Below are positions 19,116 through 27,761 of a stretch of 64,000 nt of DNA, piece by piece. Positions within the stretch are counted from its first letter, which is position 1. The number at the start of each line of letters is the position of its first letter. The DNA is from Nostocoides sp. HKS02. GTDB taxonomy: Bacteria; Actinomycetota; Actinomycetes; Actinomycetales; Dermatophilaceae. A model generated the notes under the pieces. The model saw nothing but the letters and a program-made list of their open reading frames with translations, had not been told where the DNA came from and made no database searches. The stretch covers positions 1,922,001 to 1,986,000 of the forward strand of contig NZ_CP046121.1 in assembly GCF_009707485.1 (NCBI RefSeq), written 5' to 3'. The position numbers were made by a program, and so were the translations under genes.

Positions 19116-19175
19116 ATTCAAGGTTTCTCTTGACAAGGTGCGATGTCAGGATCATATTCAAGTGATTACTTGAAT
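19116..19175 (+). promoter_or_regulatory. Promoter with two ArsR-rhodanese-type operators
   Basis: ATTCAA-N8-TTGACA (19116-19135) contains a consensus -35 TTGACA. After 17 bases comes CATATT, overlapped by ATTCAA-N8-TTGAAT (19156-19175), whose halves are fully palindromic with two further bases on each side. The two sites are 40 bp apart. The same motif flanks the ArsR-rhodanese regulator gene at 23537-23598. Confidence 0.75.
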
Positions 19176-19192
19176 CTATCGGAGGTGCTGAC

Positions 19193-19612
19193 ATGACTCA
19201 GACCACGACCCCAATCGTCCGCCCGGACCCGGCGGGTCGAAGGTCGGCAGGCCGCGAGCTCCTCGAAACTCTGGCCGCACGCGACTTCGACCGGGTGCTG
19301 GACTGCCTCGAGACCGACGCGACCATGCGGGCCCTGCTCCCCAGTGGGCCCGCCGAGTTTCACGGAGCAATCCAGATCGTCGAGAACCTTCGGACCTGGT
19401 TCGGCTGCGCCCACGAGTTCGAAGTACTGAACGGCACCTTTGACGAGGTTGGAGGCAGGCCCCACGTGACATGGCGGTTCCGCCTGCATCCGACTCCGTG
19501 GGGCGATGACGCCTGGCACGTCATCGAACAACAGGCCTACCTGCACGACGGTGAGCGCATCGCGTCAATCGACCTCCTGTGCTCAGGGTTCCAGCCCGAC
19601 GGCCTCAGCTGA
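19193..19612 (+). CDS. SnoaL-like protein under ArsR-type operators
   Basis: A 139-residue NTF2-fold protein (RELLETLAARDFDRVLDCLE, MRALLPSGPAEFHGA, an F/W-rich central sheet). Such folds are often small-molecule cyclases or binders; the role here is unknown. ATG 19193 has GGAGG nine bases upstream. Its promoter carries two copies of the operator found at the ArsR-rhodanese/methyltransferase promoters 4.4 kb away, so it probably belongs to that regulon. Confidence 0.85.
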   Translation: MTQTTTPIVRPDPAGRRSAGRELLETLAARDFDRVLDCLETDATMRALLPSGPAEFHGAIQIVENLRTWFGCAHEFEVLNGTFDEVGGRPHVTWRFRLHPTPWGDDAWHVIEQQAYLHDGERIASIDLLCSGFQPDGLS

Positions 19613-19844
19613 CCCTGAACAGGGATCGGACGATGAAGCCGGGACAACCCACCGGAGAACCACGAAGGACTCTAGGACTCCAAGGACGTCGTCCCGTTCA
19701 CGGTCACCGACCAGGGCAGCGGGGCTTGCCACCTGACCACCTCGAGGCCATCCCACCGGTTCACCCCAGGCCGACGCATCCGACACCCGCGCGAACGGCG
19801 CCACCCGCCCGGGCCTGCGATCTGTCCCGGCATCGGCTACCGGG

Positions 19845-20145
19845 CAGCCCTGCGCCGTGACAACGGGCCAGAGCTCGCCTGCGCAGCGACAGCCGTCTGG
19901 GCGGGAAGACGCGTCGGACTCTCGTTCATTCCGCCTATCGACCGGGGCGCAACGGATACGTCGAGTCGTTCAACAGCCGCATCCGTGACGAATGCCTGCA
20001 CATCAACATCTTCTGGTCCCCCCAAGCCCGCATCGTGATCACCGGCTGGAAGGAGGACGACAACCAACGCCGACAGCAGCGTCCTCGGCTTCGAGGCCCA
20101 AGCGGTCTATGCGGCAGCCTGCACCCAGCGATGAAGATCGACTGA
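19845..20145 (+). pseudogene. IS3-family transposase remnant (frameshifted)
   Basis: Two frames carry the end of an IS3-type DDE transposase: RRDNGPELACAATAVWA with GLSFIPP, then after a frameshift near 19945 GRNGYVESFNSRIRDECLH and ARIVITGWKEDDNQRR. These hold the second Asp (DNGPE) and final Glu (ESFNSR) regions. The N-terminal part and the insertion ends are missing, so it cannot be active. Confidence 0.75.
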
Positions 20146-20284
20146 TTCAGTCATCGTGCGACCCCGAACTTCTGGCAGGTGACCTGGCTGGAAGAACGTC
20201 CGGTCCGGCTATGGATTCATCAGGGCCTCGGGGGCAGGCTGGGCAGGCAGGTCGGATCGCACCTACCAGGGGACGGAAACAGAT

Positions 20285-20707
20285 ATGGATCTCGATGAGT
20301 TCGTCAGCCAGTGTGAGCAGGCATGGCAGATCTTCGTGACCGGCGACCCCGGTCCGGCCAAGCTGCTGTTCTCACGCCGCGACGACGTGACTCTGGCCAA
20401 TCCGTGGGGCCCGGCCGTAACGGGATGGGCGGATGTATCGGCGACGCTCGACGCGGCGGCGGCTCGCTTTCGGAACGGCCACCTGTCAGAACTCGACGTC
20501 CTTAGCAGGTTCGTCTCGGACGGCCTCGCCTGTTATCACGAGATCGAACGGGGCGAGGCAATGATTGGCGGTCGCACGGAGCCGGAGGCTTTTGCTCTTC
20601 GGGTGACCTCCATCTACCGGCGGGAGGATGAACAGTGGCGCATCGTGCTCAGGCATGCGGACCCGATCCTGGCCCCGAGACCAGTCGATGCGTCGATCAG
20701 CAGCTAA
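20285..20707 (+). CDS. SnoaL/DUF4440-like protein
   Basis: A 140-residue NTF2-fold protein, the third in this region. It has an N-terminal helix pair, LANPWGPAVTGWADV and the conserved late strands TSIYRREDEQWRIVLRHADP, as in YybH/DUF4440-type proteins. ATG 20285 is supported by GGGGACGGAAACAG upstream. It stands alone after a transposase scar. Function unknown. Confidence 0.85.
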   Translation: MDLDEFVSQCEQAWQIFVTGDPGPAKLLFSRRDDVTLANPWGPAVTGWADVSATLDAAAARFRNGHLSELDVLSRFVSDGLACYHEIERGEAMIGGRTEPEAFALRVTSIYRREDEQWRIVLRHADPILAPRPVDASISS

Positions 20708-20939
20708 TGCACGATCCGGTGGACGGGGAAGCTCCTTCGGCTACCAGATCCGCTCCGGGGACCGAGGCATGCGGTGCGAGTCCACACCCTGCAGTGGGCC
20801 GAGCTCGCGAGCGGATGTGGCAGGTGGGCTCCGTCATTTGAGGCAGGTGCCTGGTCGGCGCGCTCTCTAGCATCGCGAGCAGGCTGCCGGTACGACATCG
20901 GGTCGTCCGGGACCTGTTCTGTTGAGGGGGAGCATCACG

Positions 20940-21335
20940 ATGCGTCGAACCTTGCTCACTGGCGTTGCCACGCTGCTCATGGTCGCCGCCACGGCCGGTA
21001 CCGCGCTGGCCGACTCCTGCGCGAACGTCAGTCGAGCCGCCCCGGCCGGGTGGACCCCGGCAACGACGTACACCGCGCCGCTGGTCCAGGGCGGCTGGGT
21101 GTGGCTGCCAAGCTTGACCGCAGTGTTCGGGCCGACCGCGCAGTTCCCGCCGTTCTGGGGGAAGATCACGCCTGGAACCGCCGACTCGGTGTTGCTGGGC
21201 GCGCCTGGGATGAATGGCAACTACACCAACGGAAAGACGGTGTCCCTGCTCGGGGTGTCGGCCGTGTGCGACCAGGCCAGTCAGGCGTTCGTGGTCCGTC
21301 AGACCGACCACGGCATCCAGTCCGGCTGCGAGTAG
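20940..21335 (+). CDS. Small secreted protein with cysteine pairs
   Basis: A 131-residue protein with a Sec signal peptide (MRRTLLTGVATLLMVA, cleavage after ALA near residue 24). The mature part is Trp/Pro-rich with cysteines in DSCANVS, SAVCDQ and a terminal SGCE. I do not recognise the family. ATG 20940 follows GAGGGGGAGC. It converges with another secreted-protein gene across the hairpin at 21354. Confidence 0.75.
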   Translation: MRRTLLTGVATLLMVAATAGTALADSCANVSRAAPAGWTPATTYTAPLVQGGWVWLPSLTAVFGPTAQFPPFWGKITPGTADSVLLGAPGMNGNYTNGKTVSLLGVSAVCDQASQAFVVRQTDHGIQSGCE

Positions 21336-21353
21336 CCACTGCGGGTTGAACGG

Positions 21354-21393
21354 AGGCCCACCACGTCGCGGAATGCGCTGGGATGGTGGGCCT
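21354..21393. terminator. Terminator between convergent secreted-protein genes
   Basis: AGGCCCACCA (21354-21363) pairs with TGGTGGGCCT (21384-21393), a perfect 10-bp stem with a 20-base loop. Confidence 0.55.
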
Positions 21394-21413
21394 TCGCGTG
21401 CGGTTCTGGCGGG

Positions 21414-21896
21414 TCAGCGTCCGCAGGAGGCGTGGTCGAAGCTGACCGTGACGGTGCCGTTCGCGTTCATGGTGGCCTGGGCGTTGTCGTGGAACTGCAG
21501 GTGTGAACCGTCGGTGCCGGTGGCGTTGACGTTGAAGGTGGAGTGTTCGACGCCGTTGCGCAGGTTGTTCTCGTCGCCGAACCAGGTCGCGAAGTGACCG
21601 GTGTACGTCACCTTGGACGGGTCGTCGGGGGTGAACGTGAACTGGCCCTCGACCGTGCCGGTGAACCAGGACCCGGTGGAGTTGATGGTGCCGTGGAAGA
21701 TCTGGTTCTCGATGGCGGACACGGTTCCCGGGTCGCCGGTGCACGGGTTCATGTCATGGAACACGTCGACGACCCCATGCAGGTTCTGGGTGAAGGTCGT
21801 CGCGCCGTTCCCGCCGGCGATGGCCGAGGTCGCGCTCAGGGCGAGCGCGGGAACGCTGACCAACGTGGCCAGCAGCAGCTTTGTCCTGGTGTACAT
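21414..21896 (-). CDS. Secreted protein, NPCTGD family (copy 1)
   Basis: A 160-residue protein with a Sec signal (LLLATLVSVPALALSA, cleavage around AIAGG). The mature part has NPCTGD, a run of beta strands with VTYTGHFATWFG and a C-terminus MNANGTVTVSFDHASCG. It is homologous to the protein at 32863-33378, sharing NPCTGD, VTY(T/S)GHAT.W, TGSDGS/TGTDGS..HD.A and MNANGTVTV.FD. The two cysteines could form a disulfide. No function is known to me. Confidence 0.85.
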   Translation of the reverse strand: MYTRTKLLLATLVSVPALALSATSAIAGGNGATTFTQNLHGVVDVFHDMNPCTGDPGTVSAIENQIFHGTINSTGSWFTGTVEGQFTFTPDDPSKVTYTGHFATWFGDENNLRNGVEHSTFNVNATGTDGSHLQFHDNAQATMNANGTVTVSFDHASCGR

Positions 21897-22369
21897 CCGA
21901 ACCTCCTAGGTGCCTGGCCAGTGGTGGGTATGCCGCTGCGCCAACCCCTACGTCAGCACCGGGCGAGCTCGGTGTCATCGTCCAAAATGACGACGGGCCC
22001 ACACCCGCCGAATCTGCTCGGACTGCCACCAGGCGTCACGTCGGGGCACTGTCCAGGGATCGCCTCCTGCCAGCATCCGGAACTGGACCCGCAGGGCAAC
22101 CCCTGGCGCCTACATCACAAGCGGTGCGCACGGCTCGCAGCTGACTAGTCCCCATGGGTGCACAGGGCCTCCTGTGCATAACCGCCCGGCGAGTCTGTCG
22201 AGTTGCGGAAAGGGTGTCGGCGCCACGGGTCTCCCACTCACATCCGGTTGCCAGGGGAAGAGGACTAGTCACCCGAAATCGCCGCTCAAACATTCGTTTG
22301 CCACGTGTGCGGGGAGCGCACATTCCGGCAACGCAAACGCTGGCGCCCTCCGCCCCATTCGCGGCTGGG
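21897..22369. other. Intergenic stretch without recognised genes
   Basis: It holds the promoter region of the secreted-protein gene at 21896 and the trailer of the cupin gene. I see no gene or strong hairpin here. Confidence 0.5.
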
Positions 22370-22723
22370 TCAGCTGGGCTTGGCGTACGCCTTGACGCCG
22401 GTGTCCAGCAGGATGCACGGCTCGTCGCCGTCGGTCCAGGCGTCGTGGCCAGGGTCGAGGTCAAGGACGTCCCCGGGGGTGATGGACAGCTCGGAACCGT
22501 CGTCGAACCGGACGGTCATCTGCCCGGACAGGCAGATGCCGGTGTGGTGGGTCTGGCAGGACTCGGTGCCAGCGATGGGCTTGACGTCGTTGGACCAGCG
22601 CCAGCCTGGTTCGAACACGCCGCGGCCGAGTGTGAAGTCGCCGAGCGTGACTACATCCATGTGGCCGTGTCCGTGGAACGGGCGTTGCTCGTGTGGTGTG
22701 TCGATGTTCTGCTTCTCGGACAT
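22370..22723 (-). CDS. Cupin-domain protein
   Basis: A 117-residue single-domain cupin. Motif 1 appears as GTESCQTHHTGICLSGQMTV and motif 2 as ITPGDVLDLDPGHDAW, the small beta-barrel metal/ligand site with His residues. It starts at ATG 22723, 21 bp after the stop of the ArsM-like methyltransferase on the same strand, so both are probably transcribed from the operator-bearing promoter at 23537-23598. Its role may be sensing or converting a small molecule; the substrate is unknown. Confidence 0.88.
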   Translation of the reverse strand: MSEKQNIDTPHEQRPFHGHGHMDVVTLGDFTLGRGVFEPGWRWSNDVKPIAGTESCQTHHTGICLSGQMTVRFDDGSELSITPGDVLDLDPGHDAWTDGDEPCILLDTGVKAYAKPS

Positions 22724-22744
22724 GGTGACCTCCGGTGGTGTTTG

Positions 22745-23518
22745 TTAGGTGCCGGCCTTGGTGGCCAGGAGGGAGATGCTCTTGACGCCGTAAATGGCGC
22801 TGGCGTCGCGCGCTCGTTCGGAGATGAACGCGTAGGCGTTCTCGCGTTGGTGGGTGATGGCGAACCCGGCAGACTCGATGGCTTCCAGGTAGTGGTCGTG
22901 TTGCGCGGCCCCGCCGATGCAGGAGGCCCACAGGTCGGCGTTGCAGACGATGGCGTCGGTGAGCTGCCGTTCGGTGATGATGTCGGCGATGGCGAGCCGA
23001 CCGCCCGGTCGCAGGACGCGGGCGGCCTCGGCGAACACCGCCTTCTTGTCCGCGCACAAGTTGATGACGCCGTTGGAGATCACGGCGTCGACGCTCGCTT
23101 CGCCGAGTGGGAGGGCCTCGATGCAGCCCTCGCAGAACTCGACCTGGGTGAACCCGGCCTCTTCGGCGAGTCGGCGAGCCTTGTCCAGCTGTTCGGTGGT
23201 GAAGTCGATGCCGTACACACGGCCGGTGTGACCGACGATCCCGGCGGCGTAGAAGGCGTCCATCCCCGAACCGCTCCCGAGGTCGACCACGCTCTCGCCG
23301 GGCGCAAGGTCGGCCAGGTCGAAGAAGTATCCAACTCCGGCGAACGATTCGACTGCGCCGGTCGGCACGTCGCGAAGCCGGTCCGCGTCATAGCCGACGC
23401 GCAGTGCGACCGGCGCCCCCAGCTCGAAGTGGAACTGGTCGTGTGGCTGCTGGGCCACGTGACGGTACATGTCCTTGACCTTGGCCGTGAGCTCCTCGAT
23501 GTCCACCGTGACGCTCAT
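22745..23518 (-). CDS. ArsM-like SAM-dependent methyltransferase
   Basis: A 257-residue class I methyltransferase resembling arsenite methyltransferases. Motif I is VVDLGSGSGMDAFYAA and motif II VYGIDFTTEQLDKAR. The ArsM-type blocks ISNGVINLCADK and ASCIGGA follow, with cysteines at FCEGC, INLC and SCIGG. In canonical ArsM the block reads SNCVINL, so the usual Cys is Gly here with a Cys five residues later. Arsenite is therefore only a guess. ATG 23518 has GGAGG. It diverges from an ArsR-rhodanese gene, with operators between them. Confidence 0.85.
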   Translation of the reverse strand: MSVTVDIEELTAKVKDMYRHVAQQPHDQFHFELGAPVALRVGYDADRLRDVPTGAVESFAGVGYFFDLADLAPGESVVDLGSGSGMDAFYAAGIVGHTGRVYGIDFTTEQLDKARRLAEEAGFTQVEFCEGCIEALPLGEASVDAVISNGVINLCADKKAVFAEAARVLRPGGRLAIADIITERQLTDAIVCNADLWASCIGGAAQHDHYLEAIESAGFAITHQRENAYAFISERARDASAIYGVKSISLLATKAGT

Positions 23519-23536
23519 CGCACACCTCCAGTCCGT

Positions 23537-23598
23537 ATTCAATAGTTCTCTTGAATAAGACTCCTGTATGGTGGGCGTTGTCAAGGAAAATCTTGAAT
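23537..23598. promoter_or_regulatory. Paired ArsR-rhodanese operators in the divergent promoter
   Basis: ATTCAA-N8-TTGAAT at 23537-23556 and TGTCAA-N8-TTGAAT at 23579-23598. Read leftward, the second contains TTGACA as a -35 for the methyltransferase-cupin operon, and the first covers its -10/start region. The starts of the two sites are 42 bp apart. The arrangement mirrors the promoter at 19116-19175. Confidence 0.75.
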
Positions 23599-23620: not shown

Positions 23621-24283
23621 ATGGCGGATCACGCAGCGAAGGCCGCCTTGTACGATGCGCTGGCGGAGGCGGCCAAAGCCTTGGCCAACGGACGGCGTGC
23701 AGAGCTGGTCGACGTGCTCGCCCAGGGCGAGCGTTCGGTCGAGGAGCTCGCGCGGGAGATCGACCAGACCGTGGCCAACACGTCCCAACACCTCCAGCGA
23801 CTGCTGCGCTCAGGCCTGGTCGAGTCACGCCGGGAAGGAACTCGGATCTACTACTCCCTGTCCGGCCCGGTGGTCGGCGACCTGTGGCGTACCCTGCGCG
23901 AAGCAGCGCAGCAGCACGTGGCCGGGCTCGAGCAGCTCGCCGCGGACTATCTCGGTGACCGCAGCACGCTGCGCACCATCACTCGCGATGACCTTCGCGA
24001 CCGACTGCGCGACGGCGATGTCGTCGTGCTCGATGTACGACCCGCGGCCGAGTACGCCGCAGGTCACATCCGAGGCGCGATCTCGGTTCCCGTCCAAGAC
24101 CTGAAGGCTCGCCTGCGCGAGATTCCCGACGGCGCCGACGTGGTCGCATACTGTCGCGGGCCGTTCTGCGTGTTTGCCGACGACGCCGTGCGCCTTCTCA
24201 CCCAAACTGGTGCCACGGCCGCGCGCCTGCAGGACGGGTTCCCTGAATGGGCCGAGGCTCACCTCCCGGTCGAACGCTCATAA
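23621..24283 (+). CDS. ArsR-family repressor fused to rhodanese domain (copy 1)
   Basis: A 220-residue regulator. The N-terminal ~100 residues are an ArsR winged helix (LANGRRAELVDVLAQGERSVEELA, TSQHLQRLLRSGLVESRREGTRIYYSL). The C-terminal rhodanese domain has VVLDVRPAAEYAAGHIRGA and the active loop YCRGPFC, with two cysteines able to carry a persulfide or disulfide. ATG 23621 is preferred over 23600 because GAGGTGG precedes it and homology to the paralogue starts there. It probably represses its own region through the ATTCAA-N8-TTGAA(T) sites. It is 48 bp from the second operator. Confidence 0.92.
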   Translation: MADHAAKAALYDALAEAAKALANGRRAELVDVLAQGERSVEELAREIDQTVANTSQHLQRLLRSGLVESRREGTRIYYSLSGPVVGDLWRTLREAAQQHVAGLEQLAADYLGDRSTLRTITRDDLRDRLRDGDVVVLDVRPAAEYAAGHIRGAISVPVQDLKARLREIPDGADVVAYCRGPFCVFADDAVRLLTQTGATAARLQDGFPEWAEAHLPVERS

Positions 24284-24319: not shown

Positions 24320-24970
24320 TCAGGCTGGTGTTCGCTGCAGACCGACGATCTGCCACACCGGGCCGTGGTGGGCGTAAACCGGGGTCAGGCCGCACTCGGC
24401 CAGGACCGCGAGCATCCGGGCGGGTGGATGGCTGAAGGTTCTGAAGGTGCGCCCGGTGAGCCGAAAGGCGATGTTCTGCGCGCCGAGCACGGTACGGCTT
24501 GCAAGGTTGCGTGGGGGGTGGCTGAACACGAGCAGCCGCCCAGCGTGGTCGGCGGCGGCGCCGAGCAGGCGTTCGACGTCCGGGTAGCAACAGACCACCC
24601 GGTGCAGGACTACCACGTCCGCGCGTTCGACCTGCTGCGGTGCGGTTGCGATGTCGAGGATGCGTCGTTCGATACGGTCGGCGACACCGGCCTCGTCGGC
24701 GAGCTGGCGCGCGGGGCCGTCGTAGGCGTCGACGAGCTCGAGGTTCGTGGCCCGGGCGGCGCCGCGGCGCAGCAGCTCGATCTGCAGCTCGCCGACGCCG
24801 CCGCCGATCTCCAGGACGGTCGCCCCTTCGATGTCGTGGCCGACCAGGAAGTCGACGATGCGCGCCTGGGCACGACCCAGGCCGCGCTTGCGGTAGCGCG
24901 CCTCGACATGGCGGGCGAAACGGTCCCCGAACACGCCGTCGCACCCGCGCGGGTCACAGCAGTTGGCCAC
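24320..24970 (-). CDS. Class I SAM-dependent methyltransferase
   Basis: A 216-residue methyltransferase with a Cys-rich start (ANCCDPRGCDGVFG), motif I TVLEIGGGVGELQIELLRRG and the acidic motif II LVDAYDG. It resembles the Mg-protoporphyrin-methyltransferase-like group of actinobacteria (RHVEARYRKRGLG, VVLHRVVCCYPDVE). Four cysteines in the first 30 and middle residues might bind a metal or thiol-reactive ligand. GTG 24970 lies six bases from CATAAT, so the transcript may be leaderless. It diverges from the MBL-rhodanese operon. Confidence 0.85.
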   Translation of the reverse strand: MANCCDPRGCDGVFGDRFARHVEARYRKRGLGRAQARIVDFLVGHDIEGATVLEIGGGVGELQIELLRRGAARATNLELVDAYDGPARQLADEAGVADRIERRILDIATAPQQVERADVVVLHRVVCCYPDVERLLGAAADHAGRLLVFSHPPRNLASRTVLGAQNIAFRLTGRTFRTFSHPPARMLAVLAECGLTPVYAHHGPVWQIVGLQRTPA

Positions 24971-24976
24971 AGCTGG

Positions 24977-25049
24977 ATTATGCGCCCGGCTGGCCCGGGC
25001 CTATGGGCGAAGTACACAACCAGGGTCATTCCATGAAAGTGTAGAATGA
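24977..25049. promoter_or_regulatory. Divergent leaderless promoters with an ArsR-like operator
   Basis: Leftward -10 CATAAT (24982-24977) ends six bases before GTG 24970. Rightward -10 TAGAAT (25042-25047) ends six bases before ATG 25054. The inverted repeat TCATTC-N12-GAATGA (25026-25049) covers the rightward -10 and would block both start regions. Neither gene has a clear ribosome site. Confidence 0.6.
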
Positions 25050-25053
25050 AGAA

Positions 25054-26436
25054 ATGACCGATTCGCTCGTGGCAAGGACACCGTCGCTCGAGGTTGTCCC
25101 GTTGGTCGACGAGGGGTTGGGTAACTCCGCCTACCTGGTCTCGCTGGGCGATGGCAGGGCGTTGGCCGTTGACGCCAGCCGTGACCTGCGCGCGCTGCGG
25201 GTGGCTGCGGACCAGCGGGGTTTGAGCGTGGCGTATGCCGCCGACACCCACCTGCACGCCGACTTCTTGTCCGGTGCCGTCCAGCTGGCCGCCACCGACG
25301 GCGCGGTCGTGCTGGCCTCAGCGGCCGGTCGCCGCGAGTTCGCGCACCGTGCCCTGTCCGACGGGGACGAGTTCGACCTCGGTGGGCTGACCCTGCGGAC
25401 CCTGGCGACCCCAGGACACACCCATGAGCACATCGCGTTCGTACTGCTCGACGGCCCCAGCGTGCTCGGGGTGTTCACGGGAGGTTCGTTGCTGGTCGGG
25501 TCCGCGGCCCGCACCGACCTGGTCTCCCCAGACCGGACCGAGGAGCTCGCCCGCGCGCAATATGCCTCCCTGCAGCGGTTGGCCGCTCTGGATGACGACG
25601 TCGCCGTATGGCCCACCCACGGCGCCGGGTCATTCTGCTCGGCGCCTCCCGGTGCGGCCCGTACCTCCACCATGGGCACCGAACGCGCCACCAACGCCCT
25701 GCTCCGCGCCGATTCGGAGGACACCTTCGTCGCCCAGCTGCTGGGCTCCCTGGGCACGTTCCCGCCGTACTTCCTACGGCTCGGTGAGATCAACCGGCGC
25801 GGACCGGCCCTGGCAGATGGGGACACCCTGACCCAGTTGTCGCCCGCGCAGGTGCGCGCGCTGGCTGCGGCGGGCGGGACCGTCGTCGACGTCCGCCCGG
25901 TGGCGGCGTTCGCGGCCGGTCACATTCCGGGGTCGGTGTCCATCCCGCTGCGTGACCAGTTCGCCACCTGGCTCGGCTGGCTGGTTCCCTACGACCGGCC
26001 GGTGGTCGTCGTCCGCGACGCCGGACAGGACCCCGCCGAGATCGTGTGGGCGGCCCGCAAGGTCGGTCACGACCACCTGGCCGCTGAACTGGCCGGTGGT
26101 TTGGGTTCGTGGACCGCGGCCGGCCAACCGGCGTCGTCCATCCCCGTCGTGGGCGCGGCCGCCCTCGCCGATGCCGTCGTCCTGGACGTCCGGCAGACCA
26201 GCGAGTTCACCGCCGGGCACGTCCCGGGCGCCTTGCACGTGGAGCTCGGCGACCTCGCCGCCCGGGTGCCGTCGTTGGCTGCCGGCCCAATCGTGGTCAT
26301 GTGCGCTCACGGGGAGCGGGCGATGGGTGGGGCTAGCCTGCTGCGTCGCGCCGGTCGCCGCGACGTGGCCGTCCTGGCCGGCGGCCCGCACGACTGGGAA
26401 CAGGTCAACGATCGGTCCCTGGAGACCGGGCTATGA
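25054..26436 (+). CDS. MBL-fold hydrolase fused to two rhodanese domains
   Basis: A 460-residue protein. Residues 1-230 are a metallo-beta-lactamase fold of the persulfide-dioxygenase-like group: THLHADFLSGA, TPGHTHEH, FTGGSLLVGSAARTDL and PTHGAGSFC. The usual THxHxDH His is Phe here. Rhodanese 1 (about 265-350) has VVDVRPVAAFAAGHIPG but RDAG instead of a catalytic Cys. Rhodanese 2 (about 365-455) has VLDVRQTSEFTAGHVPG with MCAHGERA. A role in persulfide or sulfane-sulfur handling is inferred. It overlaps the MFS gene by four bases. Confidence 0.9.
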   Translation: MTDSLVARTPSLEVVPLVDEGLGNSAYLVSLGDGRALAVDASRDLRALRVAADQRGLSVAYAADTHLHADFLSGAVQLAATDGAVVLASAAGRREFAHRALSDGDEFDLGGLTLRTLATPGHTHEHIAFVLLDGPSVLGVFTGGSLLVGSAARTDLVSPDRTEELARAQYASLQRLAALDDDVAVWPTHGAGSFCSAPPGAARTSTMGTERATNALLRADSEDTFVAQLLGSLGTFPPYFLRLGEINRRGPALADGDTLTQLSPAQVRALAAAGGTVVDVRPVAAFAAGHIPGSVSIPLRDQFATWLGWLVPYDRPVVVVRDAGQDPAEIVWAARKVGHDHLAAELAGGLGSWTAAGQPASSIPVVGAAALADAVVLDVRQTSEFTAGHVPGALHVELGDLAARVPSLAAGPIVVMCAHGERAMGGASLLRRAGRRDVAVLAGGPHDWEQVNDRSLETGL

Positions 26437-27761
26437 CGGATTCGACGCTCCGCGTCGGGCGACCGGCACGGCTCGGGCTGGCCCAGAACGCGGCCCAGTT
26501 CGGGCTGCTCGTGGTGGTCAACGCCCTGGTCGGCGGCATGCTCGGCGAGGAGCGCACTGTCCTGCCGCTGCTCGGGGAACGTCAGTTCGGGCTCAGGGCG
26601 TACACGGCGGGGCTGACGTTCATCCTCGTGTTCGGCCTAGCCAAGGCCGTCACCAACTACCTCGCCGGCACGCTGGGCGACCGGTACGGCCGCAAACCGG
26701 TCCTGGTCGGCGGGTGGCTGGTGGCGGTGCCGGTCCCGCTGCTGCTGATCTGGGCGCCGTCGTGGGGGTGGGTCATCGTCGCGAACGTTCTGCTCGGCAT
26801 CTCCCAAGGGCTGACCTGGTCGACCACCGTCGTCATGAAGATCGATCTGGTCGGTCCGGCCCGCCGCGGGCTGGCCATGGGCCTGAACGAGGCCGCCGGG
26901 TACGGGGCCGTCGCCGTGACCGCATTGGCCACCGGGTACCTCGCGCAGGCGTACGGGCTGCGCCCGGCCCCGTTTCTGCTTGGCATCGCGTTCGCCGCCC
27001 TGGGCCTTGGCCTGTCCACCCTGACCGTCAAGGAGACCCGCGACCATGCCCGCCTCGAAGCAGCCGGACACGCGCCGCGCCCTGACGGCAAACACGACCA
27101 CCTGCATGCCGACCTGACCACCGCCCAGGTGTTCGCCCAGACCAGCTTCCGTGAACCGGCGCTGTCCTCGGCGAGCCAGGCCGGGCTGGTGAACAATCTC
27201 AACGACGGGCTCGCCTGGGGACTGTTTCCCATCCTGTTCGCGGGCGCAGGTCTGTCCGTGGCCCGCATCGGCGTCCTCGCCGCCCTGTACCCGGCCGTGT
27301 GGGGCGTCGGGCAGCTGCTCACTGGCGCCCTGTCCGACCGGTGGGGTCGCAAATGGCTCATCGCCACAGGCATGGGCATCCAGGGCGTCGCCTTGGGCGT
27401 GGTGGCCCTCGCCGATACCTTTACCGTCTGGGCCTTCGCCGCCATCTTGCTGGGAGCCGGGACGGCCATGGTGTACCCGACCCTGTTGGCCGTGTCCGCG
27501 GACGTGTCCCACCCGGCGTGGCGGGCCCGCGCCGTCGGCATCTACCGGTTGTGGCGCGACGCGGGATTCGCCGCCGGCGCCCTGCTTGCTGGCCTGGTCG
27601 CCGATGCGCTCGGGGTCCGGGCCGCCGTGTGGTCGGTCGCGGCGCTGACGGTCGCATCCGGGGTGGTCGTCGCCGGGCGCATGTACGAGACTCACCCGCC
27701 CGCCCATCGCGGGAACGACCCACACCCGCAGCAGGATACGCAGGAGGTCAGCCATGGGTGA
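26433..27761 (+). CDS. MFS transporter in the rhodanese operon
   Basis: A 442-residue major facilitator with about 12 helices. The loop-2/3 motif is GTLGDRYGRKPVLVGG and the matching second-half motif is GALSDRWGRKWLIATG. It starts ATG 26433 inside the end of the MBL-rhodanese gene (ATGA) and overlaps the following ArsR-rhodanese gene by eight bases, so all three are coupled. The substrate is unknown; the context suggests export of a thiol, sulfite or metalloid compound. Confidence 0.92.
   Translation: MTDSTLRVGRPARLGLAQNAAQFGLLVVVNALVGGMLGEERTVLPLLGERQFGLRAYTAGLTFILVFGLAKAVTNYLAGTLGDRYGRKPVLVGGWLVAVPVPLLLIWAPSWGWVIVANVLLGISQGLTWSTTVVMKIDLVGPARRGLAMGLNEAAGYGAVAVTALATGYLAQAYGLRPAPFLLGIAFAALGLGLSTLTVKETRDHARLEAAGHAPRPDGKHDHLHADLTTAQVFAQTSFREPALSSASQAGLVNNLNDGLAWGLFPILFAGAGLSVARIGVLAALYPAVWGVGQLLTGALSDRWGRKWLIATGMGIQGVALGVVALADTFTVWAFAAILLGAGTAMVYPTLLAVSADVSHPAWRARAVGIYRLWRDAGFAAGALLAGLVADALGVRAAVWSVAALTVASGVVVAGRMYETHPPAHRGNDPHPQQDTQEVSHG

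Follow-up and report, generated by a model that had tools for sequence, protein, structure and literature searches.

The window considered here, a 64,000-nucleotide (64-kb) stretch of the Nostocoides sp. HKS02 genome (contig NZ_CP046121.1, positions 1,922,001 to 1,986,000), encodes two paralogous regulators, ArsR1 and ArsR2, in which an ArsR-type winged helix is fused to a rhodanese domain, and carries two types of palindromic sites. Four palindromes of the type TTCAA-N8-TTGAA, forming two pairs in two promoter regions, are very likely the operators of ArsR1, and a variant palindrome has been assigned to ArsR2 as its predicted operator. As a whole, the model in which both proteins are sulfane-sulfur repressors with operators of their own is given a probability of about 0.8. 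The sites, their pairing, conservation and rarity, and their match with the recognition helix are read from the sequence; what we infer beyond them is that the regulators are dimers and repress, that sulfane sulfur releases them from DNA, that the cysteines are bridged, and which residue contacts the base.

An earlier interpretation of the same DNA, made from the letters alone (the sequence-only reading), had proposed a single redox- or persulfide-sensing repressor acting on a methyltransferase, a cupin, itself and an NTF2-fold protein. Its core was right and its scope incomplete: one repressor very likely accounts for the four sites, but the window holds two ArsR-rhodaneses and two operator types.

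Predicted operators and promoters

The four sites, the promoters which they overlap and the regulator are the following:

19116-19135: operator 1, ATTCAAGGTTTCTCTTGACA, distal copy upstream of the SnoaL-like gene; its right half TTGACA doubles as the -35 box
19156-19175: operator 2, ATTCAAGTGATTACTTGAAT, proximal copy upstream of the SnoaL-like gene; overlaps the -10 box CATATT (19153-19158)
23537-23556: operator 3, ATTCAATAGTTCTCTTGAAT, copy on the side of the ArsM-like gene
23579-23598: operator 4, TGTCAAGGAAAATCTTGAAT, copy on the side of ArsR1; one half is the -35 box TTGACA on the minus strand
19130-19158, plus strand: sigma-70-like promoter of the SnoaL-like gene, with TTGACA (19130-19135), a 17-bp spacer and CATATT (19153-19158)
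23555-23584, minus strand: promoter of the ArsM-like gene, with TTGACA (23584-23579), 18 bp and TCTTAT (23560-23555), recognised by eye
23621-24283, plus strand: ArsR1, winged helix plus rhodanese, 220 amino acids; recognition helix 51-64 with Gln56; Cys178 and Cys183

The positions and the spacings of the pairs, 40 bp (19116/19156) and 42 bp (23537/23579), agree with those first described, and the start of ArsR1 at 23621 fits the alignment of its relatives. With up to one mismatch, TTCAA-N8-TTGAA has exactly four matches in the window, compared with a mean of 0.12 and a maximum of 1 in 100 dinucleotide shuffles. No other copies had been noticed previously, which holds for this motif, but the variant site at 25028-25047 had been overlooked. 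A genome-wide scan, suggested as a check in the sequence-only reading, confined the exact ATTCAA-N8-TTGAA to two places in the 3.48-Mb, one-contig genome, one in each promoter (control 0). At up to one mismatch TTCAA-N8-TTGAA occurs at nine places, the four operators and five others, each of the latter within a mechanically called reading frame of at least 164 amino acids; for this reason the idea that ArsR1 has further targets in this genome was rejected. Near 2348705 and 2348920 (L001), two weak matches that had seemed promising also proved to be within reading frames and were dropped as ArsR1 targets.

The promoter of the SnoaL-like gene agrees with the consensus at 10 of 12 positions and is the sole promoter-like match between 18600 and 28600, 0.5 being expected in those 10 kb. 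The proposal that the TTGACA half-sites double as -35 boxes is thus borne out for the first pair; in the second, the minus strand carries TTGACA, which faces the ArsM-like gene, and there the -10 box TCTTAT is weaker and was not flagged by the scan of the same 10 kb. As half-sites do serve as -35 and -10 boxes, the palindromes might be read as AT-rich promoter elements, symmetric by chance; the shuffle count given above and the conservation of both halves outside the promoter hexamers in relatives leave this explanation a next to negligible probability.

Conservation of the operators in relatives

The set of relatives comprises 18 loci (designated by L numbers), 16 of them with a full regulator. 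Two sites are found upstream of the regulator in L007-L016, at least one of them being TTGTCAAG, and one site each in L017 and L020. A search for the paired-site pattern in 15 genomes, all picked for carrying a relative of ArsR1, was positive in 13, the own genome included (12 of the 14 others), with 1-4 matches each and none in the reversed control, the two negative genomes being those of L017 and L018; in G902, one of the two pair matches is a different motif, TTCAACC. The assignment of the four sites to ArsR1 is based on this recurrence in 12 of 14 other genomes. Moreover, the spacing is narrowly distributed (16 pairs in 13 loci of relatives: 42 bp in ten, 41 bp in five, 45 bp in one), and the pairs typically include one TTGACA half.

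The genes next to the conserved pairs vary. The regulator is divergent from ArsM-like, cupin, metallo-beta-lactamase (MBL)-rhodanese and major facilitator superfamily (MFS) transporter genes in L012, from MBL-rhodanese and MFS genes in L013, L014 and L015, and from ArsM-like and cupin genes in L008 and L009, with MBL and MFS genes on the other side in L009. Second operator pairs lie between two methyltransferase-like genes (L008) and upstream of a 167-amino-acid protein with no Pfam match (L011), a DsrE-family gene (L012) and a methyltransferase (L013). The gene combination that had seemed to match no described pathway is therefore not a free-standing set, its ArsM-like and cupin genes adjoining the pair in relatives in varied subsets with MBL-rhodanese and MFS genes. 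The conserved pair and its tracking of the recognition helix support ArsM-like/cupin, ArsR1 itself and the SnoaL-like gene as members of the proposed regulon, the last, however, as a target in this genome only.

By tree, the nearest regulators are those of Nocardioides, Intrasporangium and a genome of the same genus. A stricter pair pattern occurs in 3 of 186 genomes of the own family, own genome included, and this patchiness suggests that the operator module may have spread by horizontal movement.

The sites could instead belong to another, unlinked regulator, ArsR1 being a bystander, and another ArsR class does use similar paired palindromes elsewhere; we consider this most unlikely, as the sites travel with ArsR1 relatives across genomes and change with the recognition helix. 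Pairing as a hallmark of the ArsR-rhodanese family was rejected, because TTCAACC-type pairs adjoin other ArsR-like genes. Such pairs (TTCAACC-N4-GGTTGA, about 41-45 bp apart) were observed in L030, L031, L033 and L143, and 3 of 5 genomes matched in one pair search carry this motif instead; some of the loci have a neighbour that, by eye, is presumably SRPBCC/AHSA1-like.

Recognition helix and operator type

In the predicted fold of ArsR1 (mean pLDDT 88.2, pTM 0.55), residues 51-64 form one helix, followed by the wing strands 67-80. A site TTC-X-A-N8-T-X'-GA was found within 250 bp upstream in 44 of 70 ArsR-rhodanese genes, 0.6 being expected from shuffles. Position X is A on both half-sites in 17 of 17 genes with the helix ANTSQ or ANTSR, and the 26 genes with a site call and Ala or Asn at residue 56 divide into C/C (24), T/T (one, L019) and T/A (one, L021), with no A/A. 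Site type fits residue 56 (Gln/Arg with TTCAA, Ala/Asn with TTCCA or TTCTA) in all 57 unambiguous sites, labelled by hand out of 87 proteins, the 18 plasmid loci described below being included. Omitted from the 57 were genes with no call, mixed sites (L021, L069, L158 and the window ArsR2), L109, L172, helices ending in H, M or G, and L064 (TTCTA/TTCTA, Ala56, which would agree); in four of the 57 (L070, L071, L131, L133) the site lies 1.3-2.7 kb upstream, before the operon. The second gene of L126 (CRSSHC), one of the 70, was excluded from the trees.

The regulator family is a common one, ArsR1 having matches in 252 plasmid records, 196 of them with a match covering at least 80% of it. As a fresh test, 18 plasmid loci from five phyla were scanned, where 0.16 symmetric sites were expected. 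Exact TCAA sites were obtained for seven Gln/Arg-56 regulators (L157, L160, L161, L166, L167, L171, L173), TCCA sites at L170 and L174, T/T at L163 and C/T at L168; no exact site call was made at L159, L162, L164, L165, L169 and L172, although TCAA-type sites with one mismatch are visible by eye at L162, L164 and L169.

Only columns 50, 52, 56 and 106 of 220 fully separate 24 TTCAA from 31 TTCCA regulators (the window ArsR2 counted as TTCCA; L019, L163 and L168 left out), and three of these columns are at the recognition helix. Asn53 was rejected as a determinant, since the SNTSA regulators of L125 and L129 have TTCCA sites. Taken as sequence correspondence, the apparent code is clean, yet few independent events lie behind it.

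By eye, in many members of the Ala/Asn-56 class (L108, L114, L117, L122 and others) the right half of the TTCCA operator, TGGAGGA, overlaps the apparent Shine-Dalgarno sequence of the regulator gene, and the TGGAGGA half of L174 (Streptomyces mirabilis) likewise overlaps an apparent ribosome-binding site.

The second regulator and its predicted operator

25028-25047: variant operator, ATTCCATGAAAGTGTAGAAT, ATTCCA-N8-TAGAAT; heads the MBL-rhodanese/MFS/ArsR2 operon, its end lying 6 bp short of the MBL start codon
27754-28419, plus strand: ArsR2, paralogous ArsR-rhodanese, 50% identical to ArsR1, with Ala56

ATTCYA-N8-TRGAAT with no mismatch has a single occurrence in the genome, at 25028-25047. 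Regulators close to ArsR2 carry ATTCCA-N8-TGGAAT, and ATTCTATATAAATGTAGAAT is present upstream of the MBL gene of the same-genus genome L064; the site is accordingly listed as the predicted operator of ArsR2. Because an ArsR2-type site heads their operon, the MBL and MFS genes, which are under ArsR1-type sites in several relatives, are here most likely placed under ArsR2, and the divergent methyltransferase-like gene MT2 is possibly controlled from the same site. ArsR2 and its close relatives also have an extra cysteine within the recognition helix (STCSAHLQ).

Predicted sensor cysteines and known ArsR-type systems

ArsR1 is assigned to the ArsR/SmtB family by its winged helix (NF033788 HTH_metalloreg, 73.6 bits, cut-off 55; PF01022, 38.5 bits, cut-off 22), and its second domain matches the rhodanese profile (PF00581, 61.6 bits, cut-off 22.2), the loop cysteine being present. 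Cys178 and Cys183 are the sole cysteines of the protein; they lie in the rhodanese loop and are invariant in 18 of 18 aligned proteins; in the predicted fold, Cys178 follows strand 173-177 and Cys183 stands at the start of helix 180-195. The motif CRGxxC was read in 69 of the 70 ArsR-rhodanese genes. The loop cysteine of rhodaneses carries sulfane sulfur. From the rhodanese domain, together with the chemistry described for other ArsR proteins (PMC9774250, PMC5823870), sulfane-sulfur sensing at the loop of ArsR1 is the probable function.

The known sulfane-sulfur regulators SqrR (Rhodobacter capsulatus) and YgaV (E. coli) are likewise ArsR-family proteins, and SqrR, at 43% identity, holds rank 6 among the structures best matching the DNA-binding half of ArsR1. 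The deduced SqrR site is ATTC-N8-GAAT (PMC9774250); the sites described here have the same ends and a longer centre (ATTC-N12-GAAT, 20 bp) and are usually paired. In SqrR and YgaV, the two cysteines used for sensing belong to the winged-helix protein (PMC9774250). BigR of Xylella and Agrobacterium is a winged-helix repressor which binds the -10 region of an operon for a sulfurtransferase-dioxygenase and a sulfur transporter, and which uses Cys42 and Cys108 (PMC5823870). In contrast with SqrR and BigR, ArsR1 has no winged-helix cysteines and carries a rhodanese domain. It scores 42.5 bits with the BigR model NF040642 (NCBIfam), against a cut-off of 155; further, the bigR operon encodes Blh (DUF442-ETHE1) and a TauE-related transporter, whereas MBL-rhodanese-rhodanese and MFS proteins are encoded here.

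The best structural match of ArsR1 is the N-terminal fragment of Mb0332 (PDB 2kko and 3gw2, residues 1-100), with a winged helix 48% identical to that of ArsR1; the full protein (Rv0324 in M. tuberculosis) is, we assume, an ArsR-rhodanese. No operator or inducer of Mb0332/Rv0324 turned up in the literature search results, nor did the search, mostly of open-access papers, find one for the ArsR-rhodanese family (the term 'ArsR-rhodanese' gave 0 papers).

The genomic context of the homologues also bears on the signal. Sulfur genes appear as targets or neighbours in two loci: DsrE after the operator pair already mentioned (L012), and DsrE with a pyridine-nucleotide-disulfide oxidoreductase, divergent from the regulator (L132). 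Similar clusters are present on plasmids of other phyla; leaving aside the unannotated L171, DsrE, rhodanese, YeeE/YedE, TSUP or cysteine desulfurase genes are near 6 of the 17 annotated plasmid homologues, and MBL or MFS genes near 11. The neighbourhoods lean towards sulfur rather than arsenic, no proof being claimed.

Enzymes of the cluster

22745-23518, minus strand: ArsM-like S-adenosylmethionine (SAM) methyltransferase, 257 amino acids, lacking the equivalents of CmArsM Cys72 and Cys174
22370-22723, minus strand: small cupin, 117 amino acids, second gene after the ArsM-like gene; PF07883, below cut-off
24320-24970, minus strand: MT2, second methyltransferase-like protein, divergent from the MBL gene
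25054-26436, plus strand: MBL-rhodanese-rhodanese protein; its FTGGSLL lacks the metal-ligand Asp of the GD motif
26433-27761, plus strand: MFS transporter, overlapping its neighbours by 4 and 8 bp

The ArsM-like protein of the sequence-only reading is a homologue of the SAM methyltransferase CmArsM (PDB 4fr0, 4fs8; E 1.1e-24). At the positions of the three ArsM cysteines, presumably numbered Cys72, Cys174 and Cys224 in CmArsM, it has Val, Gly and Cys, so that only the Cys224 equivalent (C200) is kept and the enzyme is not a canonical arsenite methyltransferase. Among seven homologues the Gly is kept in all and C200 in six, with a stop there in L018. This family, with ISNG where ISNC would be expected, resembles a separate methyltransferase family beside ArsR-rhodaneses. 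The cupin orthologue adjoins ArsM-like genes in L008, L009, L012 and L059, and a homologue of MT2 (57%) adjoins an operator pair in L008.

An arsenic resistance regulon, in which ArsR1 would sense As(III) and turn on an arsenite methyltransferase, is what the family names, the NF033788 match and the best model of the ArsM-like protein (PRK11873, arsenite methyltransferase) would suggest at first sight. The score with that model is, however, 217.5 against a cut-off of 263, there is no cysteine for As(III) in the DNA-binding domain of ArsR1, and the ten proteins scanned near the sites include no recognisable ars efflux or arsenate reductase protein. An arsenic role is very unlikely since the 'ArsM' lacks two of the three ArsM cysteines; it was set aside on the cysteine content of this protein and of ArsR1.

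The MBL protein has the MBL-plus-rhodanese layout of persulfide dioxygenases and CstB, and matches nearly full length the MBL-rhodanese proteins 3tp9 and 3r2u (E 4e-74 and 2.7e-47), the latter of which we take to be staphylococcal CstB. At the metal site, these have GD (FSGD) whereas the window protein has GG (FTGG). GG replaces GD in 34 of 35 long MBL relatives covering the motif (the MBL pieces from L011 and L127 fall outside this position); the one that differs is an additional protein of L063, 34% identical. GH is found there in five short MBL proteins (L159, L160, L164, L166, L172), and GD in L163. These comparisons point to a distinct Asp-less MBL-rhodanese subfamily. With two ArsM cysteines and the GD aspartate missing, a textbook activity can be assigned to neither enzyme.

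The same operators and repressor could also answer to a different inducer, either oxidants, through a disulfide between C178 and C183, or a soft metalloid (tellurite or selenite, for example). The CRGxxC dithiol could make a plain disulfide, methyltransferase-like genes (ArsM-like, MT2 and others under pairs in L008 and L013) suit metalloid as well as sulfur-compound methylation, and an MBL protein with no metal-ligand Asp weakens the argument from persulfide dioxygenases. Against this stand the sulfur genes near the plasmid homologues and under or beside operators in L012 and L132, and a sensor domain which is a rhodanese with its loop cysteine kept. This alternative is regarded as unlikely, though to be taken seriously.

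Proposed mechanism

In the sulfane-sulfur repressor model, ArsR1, with its rhodanese fusion, would bind as a winged-helix dimer and repress. The two operators of each promoter lie about four turns of the helix from each other, which would let one dimer sit over the -35 box and another over the -10 box; the pair between the ArsM-like gene and ArsR1 would serve both divergent genes. In the resting state, ArsR1 would repress its own gene, the SnoaL-like gene and the ArsM-like and cupin genes. With sulfane sulfur (as persulfide or polysulfide) loaded on Cys178 and bridging to Cys183, it would leave the DNA. ArsR2 would act likewise at 25028 on the MBL-rhodanese/MFS/ArsR2 operon, and the helix differences between ArsR1 and ArsR2 (Ala and Ser at 52, Gln and Ala at 56, respectively) would keep the two regulons apart.

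Several observations weigh against this model. As regards the operators, among the 16 full relatives TTCAA-N8-TTGAA is absent from L018, L019 and L021 even when one mismatch is allowed, and the only match of L022 lies 421 bp upstream; paired operators with a TTGACA half also adjoin another ArsR class; and the site at 25028-25047 is symmetric at 5 of 7 positions only (hand count). As regards the code, there is no site call within 250 bp in 26 of the 70 genes, partly since the operator precedes an upstream operon start. Mixed sites occur in L021 (ANASA, T/A), L069 (GNTSH, T/C) and L158 (ANASQ, A/T), and discordant ones in L109 (ANASR, TTCAC/TTCGC) and, by eye, in L172 (SNTSR, TTCGC) and L165 (GSASQ, TTCTA-N16-TAGAA), and L018 and L106 (helix ANTSH) have, by eye, TCAA-N16-TTGA upstream, with N16 and not N8. 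On the tree, the residue-56 class and the site type each change only twice (an earlier tree needed three changes for the Gln/Arg group), and the independent-pairs test yields 1-2 pairs, too few for significance. Finally, 5 of the 17 annotated plasmid homologues have no sulfur, MBL or MFS gene of the kinds listed above in view, and we are unsure of the activity of the MBL protein on persulfide because its metal-ligand Asp is absent.

A wider reading is put forward tentatively, at somewhat short of even odds: ArsR-rhodaneses may be a widespread family of sulfane-sulfur repressors, sensing through the CRGxxC dithiol of the rhodanese loop rather than through the winged helix and having a residue-56 code for their 20-bp operators, in which a duplication and a switch would here have given two insulated, adjacent regulons controlling a sulfur pathway not yet described, in which ArsM-like methylation and the Asp-less MBL-rhodanese would take part. 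The main interest among ArsR-type sulfur repressors lies in the two-operator split and the code which it suggests. A helix-to-operator code would allow regulons to be read from genomes; as one cluster holds both paralogues, each with its own operator, the switch is testable by few substitutions; and a sensor in the rhodanese loop would differ from the solution of SqrR and BigR.

The SnoaL-like gene and its surroundings

19193-19612, plus strand: SnoaL/NTF2-fold protein, 139 amino acids; PF12680, 23.3 bits, below the cut-off of 27; predicted ArsR1 target by position

Besides this Pfam match, no PDB match was obtained for the SnoaL-like protein. Homologues of its gene were found in 4 of 14 other genomes searched (L153-L156, the L156 copy having two internal stops), and TCAA-N8-TTGA at up to one mismatch was not found in the sequence stretches scanned for three of the four loci (L153-L155); the gene was thus rejected as a general target of ArsR1, being seen as one in this genome only. 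A second SnoaL/DUF4440-like gene lies at 20285-20707, with no TTCAA-N8-TTGAA site nearby at up to one mismatch. Just 3' of the SnoaL-like gene, at 19620-20130, broken frames are present which by eye resemble a transposase remnant.

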